In this document: positions 15,866 through 23,020 of the stretch, piece after piece
How the letters are laid out: every line of letters begins with the position of its first letter
How positions within the stretch are numbered: the stretch's first letter is position 1
IMG/VR virus record: IMGVR_UViG_3300028597_000010
Coordinates: 41,623-105,622 of that record
DNA length: 64,000 nt
DNA from: a virus
Direction: 5' to 3' (one strand)
Translations under genes and position numbers: made by a program
Notes under the pieces: model-generated
Seen by the model: only the letters and a program-made list of their open reading frames with translations
Told to the model about the DNA's origin: nothing
The model's database searches: none

Positions 15866-16237
15866 TTAGTGAGCGGTGTGAGAGAAGCGGTACGGGCGAT
15901 GAGGCATAGGCAAGTGAAACACCATATGCGGCTCATCAGACTTTGGGAGCATAGCGGCAACCTCCTCGGCACCGAGGAGACGCAACTCAGTAGGTTTGGT
16001 CAGAGTAAGGTGGCTGATCAACTCTACGTCGCTGTAGTTCTTTTTACGAACCAGATCTTCAGCGGTTACTACCCAAGCGCCTTCGGGGCCTGCACGCCAG
16101 AAACCATCTTCATAATAGATGGTGTCCAACGGATGGATGTAAGCCACAAGTTTAACCATGCGGCCTACGTTTGGGTTCAGAGCTTCGTCACCTTCGATGA
16201 CGACGTGGTCGTGAACTTTAAGTGCATTCATGTTCAT
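15866..16237 (-). CDS. hypothetical protein, paralog of the 17.7-kb protein
   Basis: A 123-aa protein; the ATG at 16237 has GAGGG 8 nt upstream, better than the neighbouring in-frame starts. The segment from VGRMVKLVAYIHPLDTIYY to WVVTAEDLVR lines up with IGKTVELIQFVPPGTSAFY to WIVKGEDLIR in the 103-aa protein at 17732-18043, with the same D-G-F/Y spacing. They look like copies of one small beta-rich domain placed either side of the glycine-zipper gene. Function unknown. Confidence 0.65.
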   Translation of the reverse strand: MNMNALKVHDHVVIEGDEALNPNVGRMVKLVAYIHPLDTIYYEDGFWRAGPEGAWVVTAEDLVRKKNYSDVELISHLTLTKPTELRLLGAEEVAAMLPKSDEPHMVFHLPMPHRPYRFSHTAH

Positions 16238-16301
16238 ATTTTGGTCCCTCAAAATGGATTAATGGATTATTACAAAGTTGTTTGGTACAAAGAAAAAATA
16301 A

Positions 16302-17640: not shown

Positions 17641-17689
17641 GACGTGAGATTAACTGTAACTTAAAAATAACGAAAAGCAATTATAACCC

Positions 17690-17725
17690 TATACCCCTAC
17701 CAACCCGGAGGCTGGTAGGGGTATA
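17690..17725 (-). terminator. strong hairpin terminator
   Basis: TATACCCCTACCA (17690-17702) pairs with TGGTAGGGGTATA (17713-17725). It lies 6 nt past the 103-aa gene and ends the long operon that begins near 26.7 kb or 23-25 kb. Confidence 0.8.
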
Positions 17726-17731
17726 AGTAGA

Positions 17732-18043
17732 TCAGGCTGTCTTGGTACGCATGCGCAAGGTTGCTACGTGATTCAATTCGAGGTGCAATGGATCAACAGC
17801 ACAGATAGGGCTTGGGATGTTACCACCCTCAGTACAACGGATCAGATCTTCACCCTTAACAATCCAGCAACCACCTTCATGACCATCGAAGTAGCCATCG
17901 CGGTAGAATGCAGAAGTACCCGGAGGTACGAACTGTATTAACTCAACAGTTTTGCCAATGTTCTCTTTAACGGAGAATGCATTAACAATGTTGGCCTTGC
18001 TTCCGGCCATGAACTTGCTGTGGAATGGGTTGTTGGTCATCAT
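17732..18043 (-). CDS. hypothetical protein, paralog of the 15.9-kb protein
   Basis: A 103-aa protein starting MMTNNPFHSKFMAG. It overlaps the 2H phosphoesterase stop by 4 nt, so it is probably co-translated with it. Its core aligns by eye with the 123-aa protein at 15866-16237 (VELIQFVPPG, FYRDGYF, WIVKGEDLIR). Beta-rich, possibly an SH3-like small barrel. Function unknown. Confidence 0.65.
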   Translation of the reverse strand: MMTNNPFHSKFMAGSKANIVNAFSVKENIGKTVELIQFVPPGTSAFYRDGYFDGHEGGCWIVKGEDLIRCTEGGNIPSPICAVDPLHLELNHVATLRMRTKTA

Positions 18044-18489
18044 GCTGCCTTCTTAACTTTCTTGTAGCCGAAGCATTCGTTGTTGAAAACCAGTTGGCGT
18101 CCCATCCAATCAGAGAAGGCCGCATTGATTGCCATGATGTCGTATTTGTCGAAGTCATACTTCAACGACATGTGAAACAGGGGAGTACCAAACGAGTGCT
18201 GGTAGCCCGCATCCTTCAACCGGCGGAACTCATCGTTCAGTTCTTTACCGGTCAAATGGAAAACGATGCCGTCGCCCAAAGGTTCCAGCTTAATGATGCT
18301 CGCGGTGAATTCCTTTTCTGGCAACAAGGCACAGAGAGGTTTCTCAATGTCGCGGTCGTCATAGATCATTGTGCAGTGCAACTCGTGCTTAGACTCCGGT
18401 GCAATACCGGCTTCCAGTAAACGAGCGATTACGTCAGCTTGAAACTCGGATTTGAGTTGGACACTGACGTAGCTATAATTGAGCTCCAT
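18040..18489 (-). CDS. 2H phosphoesterase, Acb1-like anti-CBASS candidate
   Basis: A 149-aa protein with the two histidine motifs of the 2H (LigT/CPDase) superfamily: HCTMIY (H38, T40) and HMSLKY (H106, S108), 68 residues apart. 2H enzymes cleave 2'-5' or cyclic phosphodiester bonds. Length, N-terminal tyrosine (Y7), motif spacing and a late glutamate (E138) fit what I recall of T4 Acb1 (about 150 aa; Y12, H44/T46, H113/T115, E141), which destroys the cyclic oligonucleotide signals of CBASS immunity. The Trp147 of Acb1 has no visible match. The gene lies 12 nt after a DHH phosphoesterase, whose activity on short oligonucleotides could finish the degradation. RNA-end repair is the main alternative. 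Confidence 0.7.
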   Translation of the reverse strand: MELNYSYVSVQLKSEFQADVIARLLEAGIAPESKHELHCTMIYDDRDIEKPLCALLPEKEFTASIIKLEPLGDGIVFHLTGKELNDEFRRLKDAGYQHSFGTPLFHMSLKYDFDKYDIMAINAAFSDWMGRQLVFNNECFGYKKVKKAA

Positions 18490-18501
18490 TCTTGTCTTCC
18501 T

Positions 18502-19389
18502 TTAGAACAAGTTCTTGAAGTACAACTTGACGCAGTCCCAGATAGACCGGTTCAACATCATGTGCGATTTGGCGAAACGCTTATCAGAGAATGGAAGCGT
18601 GAAACTTGCTGCTTCACCATGGCCGCCGCCACCGAAATATTCAGCAATCTCGTTTACCGGATAACCTGTAACCTTTTTACTGCGGAACGAGAACTTACGC
18701 CCGTCGGCTTGGTCGGAGTAAATCACAACCAGCGGATAGACGTGGTACAAGGCATCGCCAAGATCAGATGTGAACATGATGTTGGCGTTAATCACCGGAA
18801 CTTCCATACCGAAAACAATCATGGTCCGGGTATTGTGCAAGATACGCTTAATGTCCTGCCGCTGTTTACGCAGAAGGGTTTCGCCCTCGGCTACCATGTC
18901 CAGTGGATCACGGTTAACCAAGGAGTCGAAGATCTCTACGGTCAGCGGATAAGAGAACGCTGCAGTTACCCACGCTTTGGTGCTAGGGTAGGTAAACTTC
19001 CACAGGTCGTTATCTTCAACGTAACGGATAGCTTCTGGAGCCGGCGTGTTGGGGTTGAAGTACCGCCAAGCTAGCATCGCACCAGAATAAGTCAGATCGA
19101 CCTCACACAAGCCTTGGAGCGCCTTCTTGGCCGACTTGTGGTGATCGAGCAGAACCAGGTTGGTGTTTTCAATCAACCACTCCGTCTTCTCACGGTCAAA
19201 GCTGAAGTCGACAACGAAAACAGTCTTGCCTGCCAAACCTTCTGGCAATGGCTTATTGTAAACCCCGGGAATCAGAGTGATCTCCAACCCGAGGTTTTTG
19301 AAATGTCGCCAAACCACCCACGCAGCTGCGATACCATCCAAGCAGTGATCGTGGTAAATACATACAACGTGATTATTAGGTGAAGTCAC
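18502..19389 (-). CDS. DHH/DHHA1-family phosphoesterase (NrnA-like)
   Basis: A 295-aa protein with all main DHH-family landmarks: HDHCLDG (residues 13-19), VVDFS (D61), LDHH (82-84) and a C-terminal DHHA1 motif GGGGHGEAAS. These bind two manganese ions and hydrolyse phosphodiesters; relatives are oligoribonucleases, pAp phosphatases and cyclic-dinucleotide phosphodiesterases. Length fits a stand-alone NrnA-like enzyme. It is probably cytoplasmic. It lies between the 2H phosphoesterase and the 132-aa gene, with RNase HI just upstream, so it belongs to a nucleotide-degradation cluster. Confidence 0.85.
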   Translation of the reverse strand: MTSPNNHVVCIYHDHCLDGIAAAWVVWRHFKNLGLEITLIPGVYNKPLPEGLAGKTVFVVDFSFDREKTEWLIENTNLVLLDHHKSAKKALQGLCEVDLTYSGAMLAWRYFNPNTPAPEAIRYVEDNDLWKFTYPSTKAWVTAAFSYPLTVEIFDSLVNRDPLDMVAEGETLLRKQRQDIKRILHNTRTMIVFGMEVPVINANIMFTSDLGDALYHVYPLVVIYSDQADGRKFSFRSKKVTGYPVNEIAEYFGGGGHGEAASFTLPFSDKRFAKSHMMLNRSIWDCVKLYFKNLF

Positions 19390-19400
19390 GAGCAGTCCTT

Positions 19401-19799
19401 TTAAACAGGCACGATTTCGAGGTCCTTCCAGACATCGTGTTTAACCTTTGCTTTATGCAAGTTTTCAACACATTGTTCCTGGGCGGCTTTAACGTAGTCG
19501 CGGGGGTTGACGTTCTTGTTGATCCAGTACGTAACTTCTTTGGTTACGCTACCTTTATCATACGATACAATACAACAGAACTCAACCAAGTGGTGGTTTT
19601 GCTTATTCTCAGACAGCTCGTCATGCGCCTCACACAGTCGGTACATGTCATAGCGTTCCTTATTGAAACGCGCCCATGCGGGATCATGCACATCCATCTG
19701 TGCCAAGATCCCTTCACTGTGTTCGGCTACCTTCAGCGCTTCCCCGTAACTCAACCCGTGGAAGCGCTGTACCACCATCTTTGCGGTTAATAGATTCAT
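19401..19799 (-). CDS. hypothetical protein
   Basis: A 132-aa protein, MNLLTAKMVVQRFHGLSYG, with a helical N-terminal half and a beta part ending KDLEIVPV. The cysteines and histidines do not form a clear metal site. It fits between RNase HI and the DHH phosphoesterase with gaps of 3 and 11 nt, so it is cotranscribed with them. Confidence 0.65.
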   Translation of the reverse strand: MNLLTAKMVVQRFHGLSYGEALKVAEHSEGILAQMDVHDPAWARFNKERYDMYRLCEAHDELSENKQNHHLVEFCCIVSYDKGSVTKEVTYWINKNVNPRDYVKAAQEQCVENLHKAKVKHDVWKDLEIVPV

Positions 19800-19802
19800 C
19801 CA

Positions 19803-20291
19803 TCACCCCATGAAGCCTTCGTCGATTTCGGTAGGAGCCGCTGCCGCTTCCTTGGCTAGCTTATCCGCCATTTCGTTATCCGGAATACCTGTGTGAGCGC
19901 GCACGTGCGTGAACTTCACCTTGTTAGCTTTCAACAGAGGTTCTACGCGCTTCCACAGGTCGGCATTCTTGACGGGCTGTTGAGTCCGCCAAGTGATCCA
20001 GTTATTCCTAGCCCAACTCTTGTGCCACTTCGTAGCCCCATCAATGACGTACATCGAATCTGTGTATACGTCAAAGAAGTTCCCCGGGGCTCCGTAAGTC
20101 TCCAGCAGCACAATGATGGCCAGCAATTCCATCCGGTTGTTTGTTGTTTTGAAGTAGCCTTTCGAGAGTGTGACGACCTCCGCGTCTCCGCATCTCACTA
20201 CCAACGCATAACCACCAGGCCCAGGATTGCCCAAGGCACTGCCATCGGTATGCACCTTGTAAACAATAGTGTCTGGTTTTGATTTGCTCAT
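19803..20291 (-). CDS. rnhA: ribonuclease HI
   Basis: A 162-aa protein with the complete type 1 RNase H core: TDGSALGNPGPGGYA (D16), NRMELLA (E55), YTDSMYV (D78), RAHTG (H133) and NEMADKLA (D143). It cuts RNA in RNA-DNA hybrids, for example to remove primers during phage replication, with the DNA ligase in the same operon able to seal the gaps. The start MSKSKPD is chosen over an in-frame Met 18 codons earlier because it carries GAGAGA upstream and only the core follows. Confidence 0.95.
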   Translation of the reverse strand: MSKSKPDTIVYKVHTDGSALGNPGPGGYALVVRCGDAEVVTLSKGYFKTTNNRMELLAIIVLLETYGAPGNFFDVYTDSMYVIDGATKWHKSWARNNWITWRTQQPVKNADLWKRVEPLLKANKVKFTHVRAHTGIPDNEMADKLAKEAAAAPTEIDEGFMG

Positions 20292-20301
20292 TTCATCTCT
20301 C

Positions 20302-21288
20302 TTATTCCAATGCTCGCATGAACTCCGCCTGTTTAGCGTCATCAATTTTCTTCAGCACACTGAGACGTGATTTAACACACGCATCAATATACTCGGCCAC
20401 ATCTTCAGGGATAGGGTGACCAGAATGTTTCAACAGGCGAATCAATTTCTCCCTGTAATCCGGATCATCCACATCAATGACGTCTTCGTACCCTTCCATC
20501 GAAAGAGCACCACTGTCAGTACGGGCCATATGGAACTGCAACCGCCCGGTATCAAGTTCCAACGAGAACGAGCAGAACTTGTTGTAAAGGTCCAAGCTGT
20601 CGGCGTGGAACTCAACATTCTCCAAGCGCTGATTGGTGAGTCGCATGAAACCTTTCACCGTCAGAACAACGTTGCTCAGAACGCTGGTGTAGATATCGAA
20701 GACATTCCCCACGTCAAAGGTGGAGTTATCGATGGTGCTATCCTCAATGAGAATACCCACACCATGGTTTTCGATATCGTTGCCGACCAAGCTGCTGTTA
20801 CGCAAAGTAAGCGCACGGCACGAACTACGGATCGTGTTATCTTCGAGATAGCACGTTTCAATAAGAGCGTTCTTGATCGTCCTGAATTGCAGGTTACCCC
20901 ACCTCTCGTTGTACAGCATAGTGGAGTTAACCACACAGCAGTTTTCCAAGACGACGTTAGTAAACGTACTGACACCAGCAAATGCGCTGTCAACGATTTG
21001 CGAGTTGATCAAAACGATATCAGCCAAGATGCAAGGCGCATCCGGAAGATCGTCGTCGCACATAGCCAGTCGCTTAAAGAACTTGTGTTCAGAGTCCAGA
21101 TCAACCAAGGACTCACTGTCCAGACACATCCGAAGCACGTAGCCTTTAAGTTCCACTTCGAACAAACTGAACACGCCACCAATCGGCACCCAGTCAGGAC
21201 CGTTACCGTCAGGGTTAGGCATGTGCTCGGTATCGACTGGAGAAACTTCTACGCCGTCCAAAAGTACGGTTGCTTTGCTAATAGCCAT
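20302..21288 (-). CDS. beta-helix/pentapeptide-like repeat protein
   Basis: A 328-aa protein, start MAISKATVLLDGVEV with GGAG 8 nt upstream. Residues 100-230 contain short irregular repeats of about 20 residues rich in N, S, V and L (VLENCCVVNSTM, LRNSSLVGNDI, IEDSTIDNSTF, LENVEFHADSL), typical of a right-handed parallel beta-helix. Its C-terminus (NKFCSFSLEL..., KSRLSVLKKIDDAKQAEF) matches the end of the upstream 554-aa protein (NKFCALQIDL..., RSRIKVIKLLDSAIKVAE), so they are paralogs. Beta-helix proteins can mimic DNA or bind sugars or gyrase; which applies is unknown. Confidence 0.7.
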   Translation of the reverse strand: MAISKATVLLDGVEVSPVDTEHMPNPDGNGPDWVPIGGVFSLFEVELKGYVLRMCLDSESLVDLDSEHKFFKRLAMCDDDLPDAPCILADIVLINSQIVDSAFAGVSTFTNVVLENCCVVNSTMLYNERWGNLQFRTIKNALIETCYLEDNTIRSSCRALTLRNSSLVGNDIENHGVGILIEDSTIDNSTFDVGNVFDIYTSVLSNVVLTVKGFMRLTNQRLENVEFHADSLDLYNKFCSFSLELDTGRLQFHMARTDSGALSMEGYEDVIDVDDPDYREKLIRLLKHSGHPIPEDVAEYIDACVKSRLSVLKKIDDAKQAEFMRALE

Positions 21289-21355
21289 AAAGAACACTCC
21301 ACATAGCTATAGCCCGCCGAGTAATTAAACTCGACAGGCGTATAGAGGTTAAGGA

Positions 21356-23020
21356 TCAGAACGGTTGTTGATCGTAGTAGTCGTCACGACCGGTTGCGGT
21401 GATGGTTTCAGCCACCTTGATAGCGCTGTCCAACAGTTTGATGACCTTGATGCGGGAGCGGATAGCGGCCACCACATATATCATCAGATTGCGGGTCAGC
21501 GGATCGTTGTCTTTCGGATCGATGCCGGAAGTATTCCCCCAGCCGCCGGCAGACTTGGTCATCAGCTCGGCAACCTTCTCTTCGATCGTGTCGAAGTCAT
21601 CGTCCAGATTCATCACGACCGAAATGTACGAGTTGACCGTCAGGCAAATCTTTTCTTTGCTTTCACGGTACATGGACAACTGACCGAGCGGCAAATCGAT
21701 CTGCAACGCACAGAACTTGTTCGGCATGTACAGCCCAGGGAGAACCGGAGCAACATCTTTGAAGCGAGCGTTAACAATCAACACCGGCCCATCGGTCATC
21801 AAACGGAAGCCCTTGGTGGTGGTGTGCTTCATGACGATAGACTTCGCCTTGATAGTGTCACCGTCCATGCTCACGTTCTCAAACGTAACGGAATGCTCAC
21901 TCTTGATAGTCGACGCAAAGATCTGCACATTCTTGTACACGCCAGATGCCAAGATACTGCCTTCGATCAAAGCTTGGCGGAAAGTAGCGTGAGAGACCTT
22001 GTTACGGTCCGTGCCAAAGCTGGCCCCACGAGAGTCCCACGGCAGGTCAACGATCGGCGGCGGTGTCTTGGCGCGGTAGCTGCCAGTGAGGGTCTTGCTA
22101 ACGCAGGCATCGGTGTACGAGCTATACGTCGACTCGAGACCGATCAACAGGTTGTCGCCGAAGAAGCTGTCGTTACGGCTGCTGGAGTTGATGAGGGTCA
22201 CCAGTGCATTACGCTGGATTGCTGCATCGGAGTCAGACCGTTCGCTACCGAAGTAGGTGTTGGTGACTTCCAGAGTCGACTTCTCATCGAGCATGACGGT
22301 AACAGTACGGCCGTTGATGACTACCGCGAACTGAGTGAACGTCAGATCTTTGGAGTCGGCGCCGTAGTAGTTGATGTAGACGTCACGCTCATAGGTCAGT
22401 GGTGTTTGGTTAGGGACAATACGCCCGCCAGACAACTTGAGACCGGTCGCCTTGGGTTCGATCTGGACACCGTCAATGATCACCCATGGCTTTGGCAGCA
22501 GCTCGCGTTCTTCAAACGTCAGCGGGCGCTTCAGACGGTAGTCGATGACCTTACCGGTACCGCTATCAAGAGTGGCAACCAGTTCACCAGGGGTGGTTAT
22601 CACGTCCAAGATAAACGAGTGCGCCAGATCAATCGCTTTTGCCGTGTCGCCCTTGATCTTCACTTCGCCGTCTTCAGCTACTTCCAACGACACGCCGGTC
22701 TTCTTGTTGATTTCACGCAGTACGTCGCCAGAGTTGGCGGTCAGCATACGTGCCTGTGCCGGAGTAATGTGGATGACCGAAGTCAGACCCGTTTCCATGA
22801 TCAGCTTACCGCCACCTTTAGAAACATCTTCACTTTGTGTGAGAGATTCTTCAGCCGCTGCAACCGCTTTGGCCACTGCTTTGCCTTTGTTGGCTTCGAT
22901 GTTCTTTGTAACGAGTTCATCCAGTTCTTCCTTGACGTCTTTCGGTAGCGCTTTAACAGCGGCGGTGGTTTGCTTCTGGACTTCGTTATGGTCCAGCTTC
23001 TTGGTCTTAGCGGTTGTCAT
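21356..23020 (-). CDS. large paralog of the beta-helix protein
   Basis: A 554-aa protein. The first 80 residues are a charged, probably coiled segment (KALPKDVKEELDELVTKNIEAN). A short alpha/beta region follows, and from about 300 on come beta-helix-type repeats (IEGSILASGVYKNVQIFAST, VTFENVSMDGDTIKAKSIVM). The C-terminal 120 residues align with the 328-aa neighbour. Its start overlaps the last 14 nt of the ligase gene. A virion or nucleic-acid-associated scaffold is possible; no direct evidence. Confidence 0.7.
   Translation of the reverse strand: MTTAKTKKLDHNEVQKQTTAAVKALPKDVKEELDELVTKNIEANKGKAVAKAVAAAEESLTQSEDVSKGGGKLIMETGLTSVIHITPAQARMLTANSGDVLREINKKTGVSLEVAEDGEVKIKGDTAKAIDLAHSFILDVITTPGELVATLDSGTGKVIDYRLKRPLTFEERELLPKPWVIIDGVQIEPKATGLKLSGGRIVPNQTPLTYERDVYINYYGADSKDLTFTQFAVVINGRTVTVMLDEKSTLEVTNTYFGSERSDSDAAIQRNALVTLINSSSRNDSFFGDNLLIGLESTYSSYTDACVSKTLTGSYRAKTPPPIVDLPWDSRGASFGTDRNKVSHATFRQALIEGSILASGVYKNVQIFASTIKSEHSVTFENVSMDGDTIKAKSIVMKHTTTKGFRLMTDGPVLIVNARFKDVAPVLPGLYMPNKFCALQIDLPLGQLSMYRESKEKICLTVNSYISVVMNLDDDFDTIEEKVAELMTKSAGGWGNTSGIDPKDNDPLTRNLMIYVVAAIRSRIKVIKLLDSAIKVAETITATGRDDYYDQQPF

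Follow-up and report, generated by a model that had tools for sequence, protein, structure and literature searches.

A predicted divergent Acb1-family phosphoesterase and its DHH-DHHA1 neighbour in a phiKZ-like phage

A compact block of genes on the minus strand

Two adjoining genes lie 12 nucleotides apart on the minus strand of the window, i.e. the whole stretch of 64,000 nucleotides of viral DNA analysed here, as the original prediction had it. The upstream gene (18502..19389, minus strand), which begins with GTG, codes for a protein of 295 residues, a predicted standalone DHH-DHHA1 phosphodiesterase with the motifs H13xxC16xD18G, D82HH84 and G254GGH257. The downstream gene (18040..18489, minus strand) codes for a 149-residue 2H phosphoesterase that we place in the Acb1 family, with Y7, H38/T40, F100, H106/S108 and E138 as its landmarks. 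Reading of the sequence gives this second gene a Shine-Dalgarno motif, AAAGGAA (18497..18503, minus strand), that overlaps the DHH stop codon at 18502-18504. Its own stop is engaged in a four-nucleotide ATGA overlap with ORF103 (17732..18043, minus strand; 103 residues, phrog_2529), an overlap that recurs in record L114. The phrog_2529 family is met twice in the window, at 17732-18043 and at 15866-16252, both on the minus strand.

On the 3′ side of ORF103 stands an 18-pair terminator-like hairpin (17688..17727, minus strand), possibly the end of the transcription unit, in a window where the hairpin search gave no more hits than shuffled sequences. On the other side, ORF132 (19401..19799, minus strand; 132 residues, weak match to phrog_32794) precedes the DHH gene by 11 nucleotides, and RNase H (19803..20345, minus strand; PF00075, E 1.8e-40) serves as the upstream syntenic anchor, its position in the gene order being kept across the lineage of Pseudomonas phage EL. 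PADLOC returned no match on this gene block. Further along the same strand, the interval 20302-23020 codes for a KH-domain protein of 554 residues and a 331-residue protein, the latter with two relatives in L112 and three in L119.

The pair had been taken for a possible two-step anti-CBASS module, where the ring of the signal would be opened by Acb1 and the resulting linear molecule then broken down by the DHH enzyme, so as to stop its re-use or residual signalling. Sharing of a strand, the 12-nucleotide gap and the overlap of the Acb1 Shine-Dalgarno motif with the DHH stop all speak for this. Unrelated neighbours in the block are just as near, however, with 3 nucleotides between RNase H and ORF132, 11 between ORF132 and DHH, and the four-nucleotide overlap between Acb1 and ORF103. 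The gap of 12 is therefore nothing special, and we discarded tight spacing as evidence of coupling. Such packing supports co-transcription while creating no specific tie between DHH and Acb1: the two genes are probably co-transcribed without being an obligate pair.

A divergent branch of the Acb1 family

The 149-residue protein passes the cut-off of the Pfam Acb1 model (PF23474; 32.1 bits for a cut-off of 27), and matches no other Pfam family. It also matches phrog_755 (E 1.9e-17). All 19 homologues drawn from the window and from viral contigs match the Acb1 model at E<=0.01, four of them matching the general 2′-5′ RNA ligase superfamily model as well. A homologue profile built without T4-like sequences, when compared with solved proteins, retrieves the Acb1 enzymes of FBB1 (7t26, E 9.6e-14) and of the Burkholderia phage BCSR5 (9q2g, E 1.1e-10), while hhalign relates T4 57B to the Acb1-like profile with a probability of 98.4%. 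Direct comparisons are far less telling. BLASTP between T4 57B and the window protein is not significant (E 0.15), the latter is at most about 20% identical to the Acb1 enzymes of solved structure, and phmmer searches of PDB sequences with either the 2H or the DHH protein gave chance or marginal matches, so that profiles are needed. Surveys that use BLASTP and set out from T4 Acb1, as that of PMC9117128 did, are likely to overlook this branch. No Acb1 relatives were found in genome contigs and plasmids, and single-protein scans of viral contigs with the Acb1-like or the DHH protein found nothing; in contig scans the widest alignments were too diverse for scanning, and closer alignments worked. 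The Acb1 profile also matches the C-terminal part (residues 482-593) of the Pam3 portal protein (PDB 8hds, E 5.3e-6), which suggests that a virion protein has incorporated a domain of the Acb1/2H type.

Fold prediction agrees with the profiles. For the AlphaFold2 model (pLDDT 89), Foldseek against the PDB lists five matches at E<=0.001, all of them Acb1 chains, with 9q2y/9q2g and 7t27/7t26 nearest. The closest solved structure is the BCSR5 Acb1 phosphodiesterase (E 6.7e-7, TM 0.72 by query length; about 20% identity), and FBB1 Acb1 is matched at E 2.6e-5. It had been proposed to weigh Acb1 against LigT and CPDase by structure: two solved Acb1 enzymes come first, and LigT/CPDase structures appear only from E 2.3e-3 on. 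The label "Acb1-like" is thus borne out by a profile above cut-off, the nearest fold and the active site considered below, and a divergent branch of the Acb1 family, belonging to phiKZ-like phages, is supported by sequence and model alike.

The HxT/HxT tetrad and the 2H mechanism of Acb1 have been described, together with the contacts of the FBB1 and T4 enzymes (PMC9117128), onto which we mapped an alignment of 28 homologues that includes T4 57B. Y12, H44, T46, F107, H113 and T115 of T4/FBB1 correspond to Y7, H38, T40, F100, H106 and S108 of the window protein. Y7, H38, T40 and H106 are invariant in all 28 sequences and the S108 position is always Thr or Ser; the motif is therefore not due to chance. 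The tetrad is present as H38-C-T40 and H106-M-S108, where Ser stands in place of the second Thr, a replacement shared by most homologues from jumbo phages. These pairs and the N-terminal Tyr had been correctly recognized, and match the T4 positions. A late Glu at T4-like spacing had also been claimed. Here the alignment decides otherwise: E138 aligns with E138 of T4 and not with E141, the residue that contacts adenine in T4/FBB1 Acb1 (PMC9117128), and its equation with E141 was rejected. The true counterpart is Gly141, with Gly in most of the EL lineage. It is Ala in the homologues of BcepSauron and Motura, and the change consequently matters for specificity, not for membership of the Acb1 family.

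Other parts of the pocket differ too. Among the base-stacking aromatics Y7 and F100 are kept, while the W74 position holds Leu (Leu or Met in the homologues except those of T4, nt-1, L120, BcepSauron and Motura) and the lid residue W147 of T4 is absent from the C-terminus. The BCSR5 enzyme, by contrast, keeps Trp in the W74 region (TIWQD). T4 57B and FBB1 Acb1 (7t26/7t27) share with the window protein the 2H fold, a similar length and the residues Y12, H44/T46, F107 and H113, and they differ from it at T115, W74, E141 and W147. The T4 gene lies between ipI and 57A, a different genomic place. With E141, W74 and W147 replaced or missing, base preference probably differs from that of T4 Acb1. The residues suggest, in short, that catalysis has been kept and base recognition changed.

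Would this protein act elsewhere, for example on RNA 2′,3′-cyclic phosphate ends, on products of the tRNA-splicing type, or on some cyclic nucleotide signal other than those of CBASS? The 2H superfamily is functionally broad, the pocket residues depart from those of FBB1/T4 Acb1, and the surroundings of the locus are genes of DNA and RNA metabolism (ligase, RNase H), not recognized anti-defence genes. RefSeq and PHROGs (phrog_755) moreover name the family "RNA ligase" (NC_007623 gp126). This label carries no weight for identity, as T4 57B (NC_000866), the founding Acb1, bears it too; Acb1 relatives of jumbo phages are filed under it in databases. Against such other substrates stand the specific Acb1 model, passed above its cut-off, and a fold nearer to Acb1 than to LigT/CPDase. 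We consider that a role outside CBASS is unlikely.

The DHH-DHHA1 neighbour

The 295-residue protein matches phrog_4771 (291 bits, E 1.8e-86). It falls short of the Pfam cut-offs both for DHH (PF01368; 20.4 bits for 28.1) and, narrowly, for DHHA1 (PF02272; 25.1 bits for 25.9), so that motifs, fold and phrog_4771 place it no more narrowly than in the superfamily. At that level the recognition of the partner as a DHH/DHHA1 protein was sound. Its AlphaFold2 model (pLDDT 93) has a two-domain fold, nearest to DhhP, TmPDE, NrnA, PAP phosphatase, PggH and GdpP at 12-19% identity. Searches of the PDB by fold and by sequence brought up no solved structure of a close relative. Among the motifs, DHH and GGGH are invariant in 21 homologues, and VDFS and DRDLW are nearly so; relatives annotated "DHHA1 domain-containing protein" are carried by plasmids as well.

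The standalone enzymes NrnA, NrnB, DhhP, TmPDE (TM1595) and PggH have in common with the window protein the DHH and DHHA1 domains, the DHH/GGGH motifs and the fold; low identity, the missed Pfam cut-offs and motif I set it apart from them. In enzymes of the RecJ/NrnA type, a metal-binding Asp occupies the motif-I position that is held here by Cys16. The motif reads HxxCxDG, and of the two motif-I Asp ligands of NrnA the first is replaced by this cysteine. Of 84 distinct phage homologues, 83 have C16 and the remaining one is a partly masked sequence; the residue would make for a metal site unusual among DHH enzymes throughout the phage DHH family. The curated NrnA model (NF053633) gives 13.5 bits for a cut-off of 350. 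The partner had been assigned to a family of enzymes breaking down linear oligonucleotides and pAp. This holds at the level of the superfamily only, given the Cys of motif I and the absence of a close relative among the solved structures found. Because B. subtilis NrnA degrades 5′-3′ and NrnB proteins 3′-5′ (PMC9757072, PMC12709177), the polarity of the window protein is not predictable.

Could the DHH protein act on cyclic dinucleotides in its own right, as a phosphodiesterase similar to DhhP and GdpP that complements Acb1 by removing rings which the latter cannot open? DhhP and the catalytic domain of GdpP are among the best fold matches, but these matches extend over the whole superfamily (80 chains at E<=0.001), motif I differs at C16, and the distribution discussed below weighs against this role as it does against the two-step module. 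It appears to us highly improbable.

Distribution of the pair and proposed function

The pair is found in phage EL (NC_007623), as gp125 ("DHH phosphoesterase") and gp126 ("RNA ligase"), and in eight IMG/VR contigs where DHH is always upstream on the same strand. EL agrees with the window in order, in strand and in the ligase and RNase H genes on the flanks, with 51% identity for the Acb1-like protein and about 42-46% for DHH; it differs by a 250-nucleotide gap, an N-terminal extension of DHH of about 100 residues, and the lack of ORF103 at the Acb1 stop. The EL annotation makes no functional comment on the pairing. It had been supposed that the pairing was undescribed: we found no description of it in the literature, but it was already present in deposited genomes. 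What is new here is a divergent Acb1 member in phiKZ-like phages; the pairing was there in EL, apparently unremarked.

Across 10 EL-like genomes the pair stays close while other genes of the interval vary, and DHH is 45-55% identical to that of the window. These are points in favour of a module, as are the fold neighbours TmPDE, NrnA, PggH and GdpP, which act on linear or cyclic dinucleotides. Other observations go against it. At least one small ORF separates DHH from Acb1 in several of the eight contigs, and several pairs are split in this way or by a gap of 250-1100 bp. Relatives devoid of DHH, namely RisingSun, L018 (Acb1 58% identical), L112 and L119, retain the order ligase, KH/beta-helix, RNase H, a variable segment, Acb1 and ORF408. 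Where no DHH gene lies next to Acb1, the full record was searched for one: of 17 such records 14 had none at all and three had a distant one. None was found in three further Acb1 phages, and T4 has no DHH of the family seen in the window. Conversely, among 55 phages or contigs that carry DHH and belong to other lineages than that of EL, none had a detectable Acb1 by a profile that recovers it in EL, RisingSun, USC-1 and OBP. These counts are indicative, many contigs being of unstated completeness and the sample being biased by the search patterns.

In trees, the EL-lineage DHH proteins make one group (SH-aLRT 94, by a quick method). To account for the presence of DHH on the Acb1 tree takes three changes, of which the simplest version is a single gain with two losses; two branches of the EL lineage lack DHH but have Acb1 at its usual place. 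DHH is accordingly an accessory gene, belonging to a single lineage and sitting at a conserved locus, which it would have entered once. Co-occurrence with Acb1 is thus confined to a single lineage instead of recurring in independent ones, and this distribution suggests neighbours rather than a dedicated two-step machine. The product of the Acb1 that has been studied is linear GpAp with a 3′-phosphate (PMC9117128), which would already be no ring signal. Its removal may be imagined as a further step, but no such step is needed: T4, like most Acb1 phages, does without a DHH of this family. The two-step module of the original prediction is not supported by the distribution, and we hold it to be quite unlikely. 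A variant of the idea, in which EL-like phages combine an Acb1 of altered base specificity with a Cys-type DHH that clears linear products with 5′-OH and 3′-phosphate ends, seems very unlikely as well. Should the DHH partner matter nonetheless, anti-CBASS action would be a pathway and not the work of a single enzyme.

The explanation that we find best, and rather likely, is that of a divergent Acb1 destroying CBASS signals, accompanied by an accessory, non-obligate DHH. From homology, predicted fold and conservation of the active site we infer an anti-CBASS role for the 149-residue protein, which, by the 2H mechanism, most likely would cleave the cyclic di- or trinucleotides of CBASS. A ribose 2′-OH would be activated by H38/T40 and H106/S108, and ring opening would give a 2′,3′-cyclic phosphate, then a linear product with 5′-OH and 3′-phosphate. 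The adjacent protein would probably be an accessory phosphodiesterase of general use, with short oligonucleotides or small nucleotides of other kinds as its substrates. Selective pressure for anti-CBASS functions does exist: against a phiKZ-like phage that forms a nucleus, CBASS III-C confers a protection of more than 10^5-fold (PMC10889362). In a June 2026 review, the sponge Tad1, which phiKZ is reported to use, figures as the sole anti-defence protein so far described for jumbo phages (PMC13282480). The present Acb1 branch bears on whether CBASS signals are destroyed by phiKZ-like phages too, and on which bases would then be preferred. Acb1 is detectable in EL, RisingSun, several Vibrio and Aeromonas jumbo phages, and OBP, which has Acb1 only; neither Acb1 nor DHH was detected in phiKZ, 201phi2-1 and PhiPA3.

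Elsewhere, in the jumbo phages Hallingskeid of Erwinia (L005, 4989-6759) and EJP2 of Escherichia (L006, 4986-6750), a gene of the Sir2 family comes directly after an Acb1-like gene, within about 5 kb of genes for NAD salvage (nicotinamide phosphoribosyltransferase, adenylyltransferase). In Hallingskeid an annotated Nudix hydrolase follows as well. Such a cluster is possibly directed against both nucleotide- and NAD-based defences.
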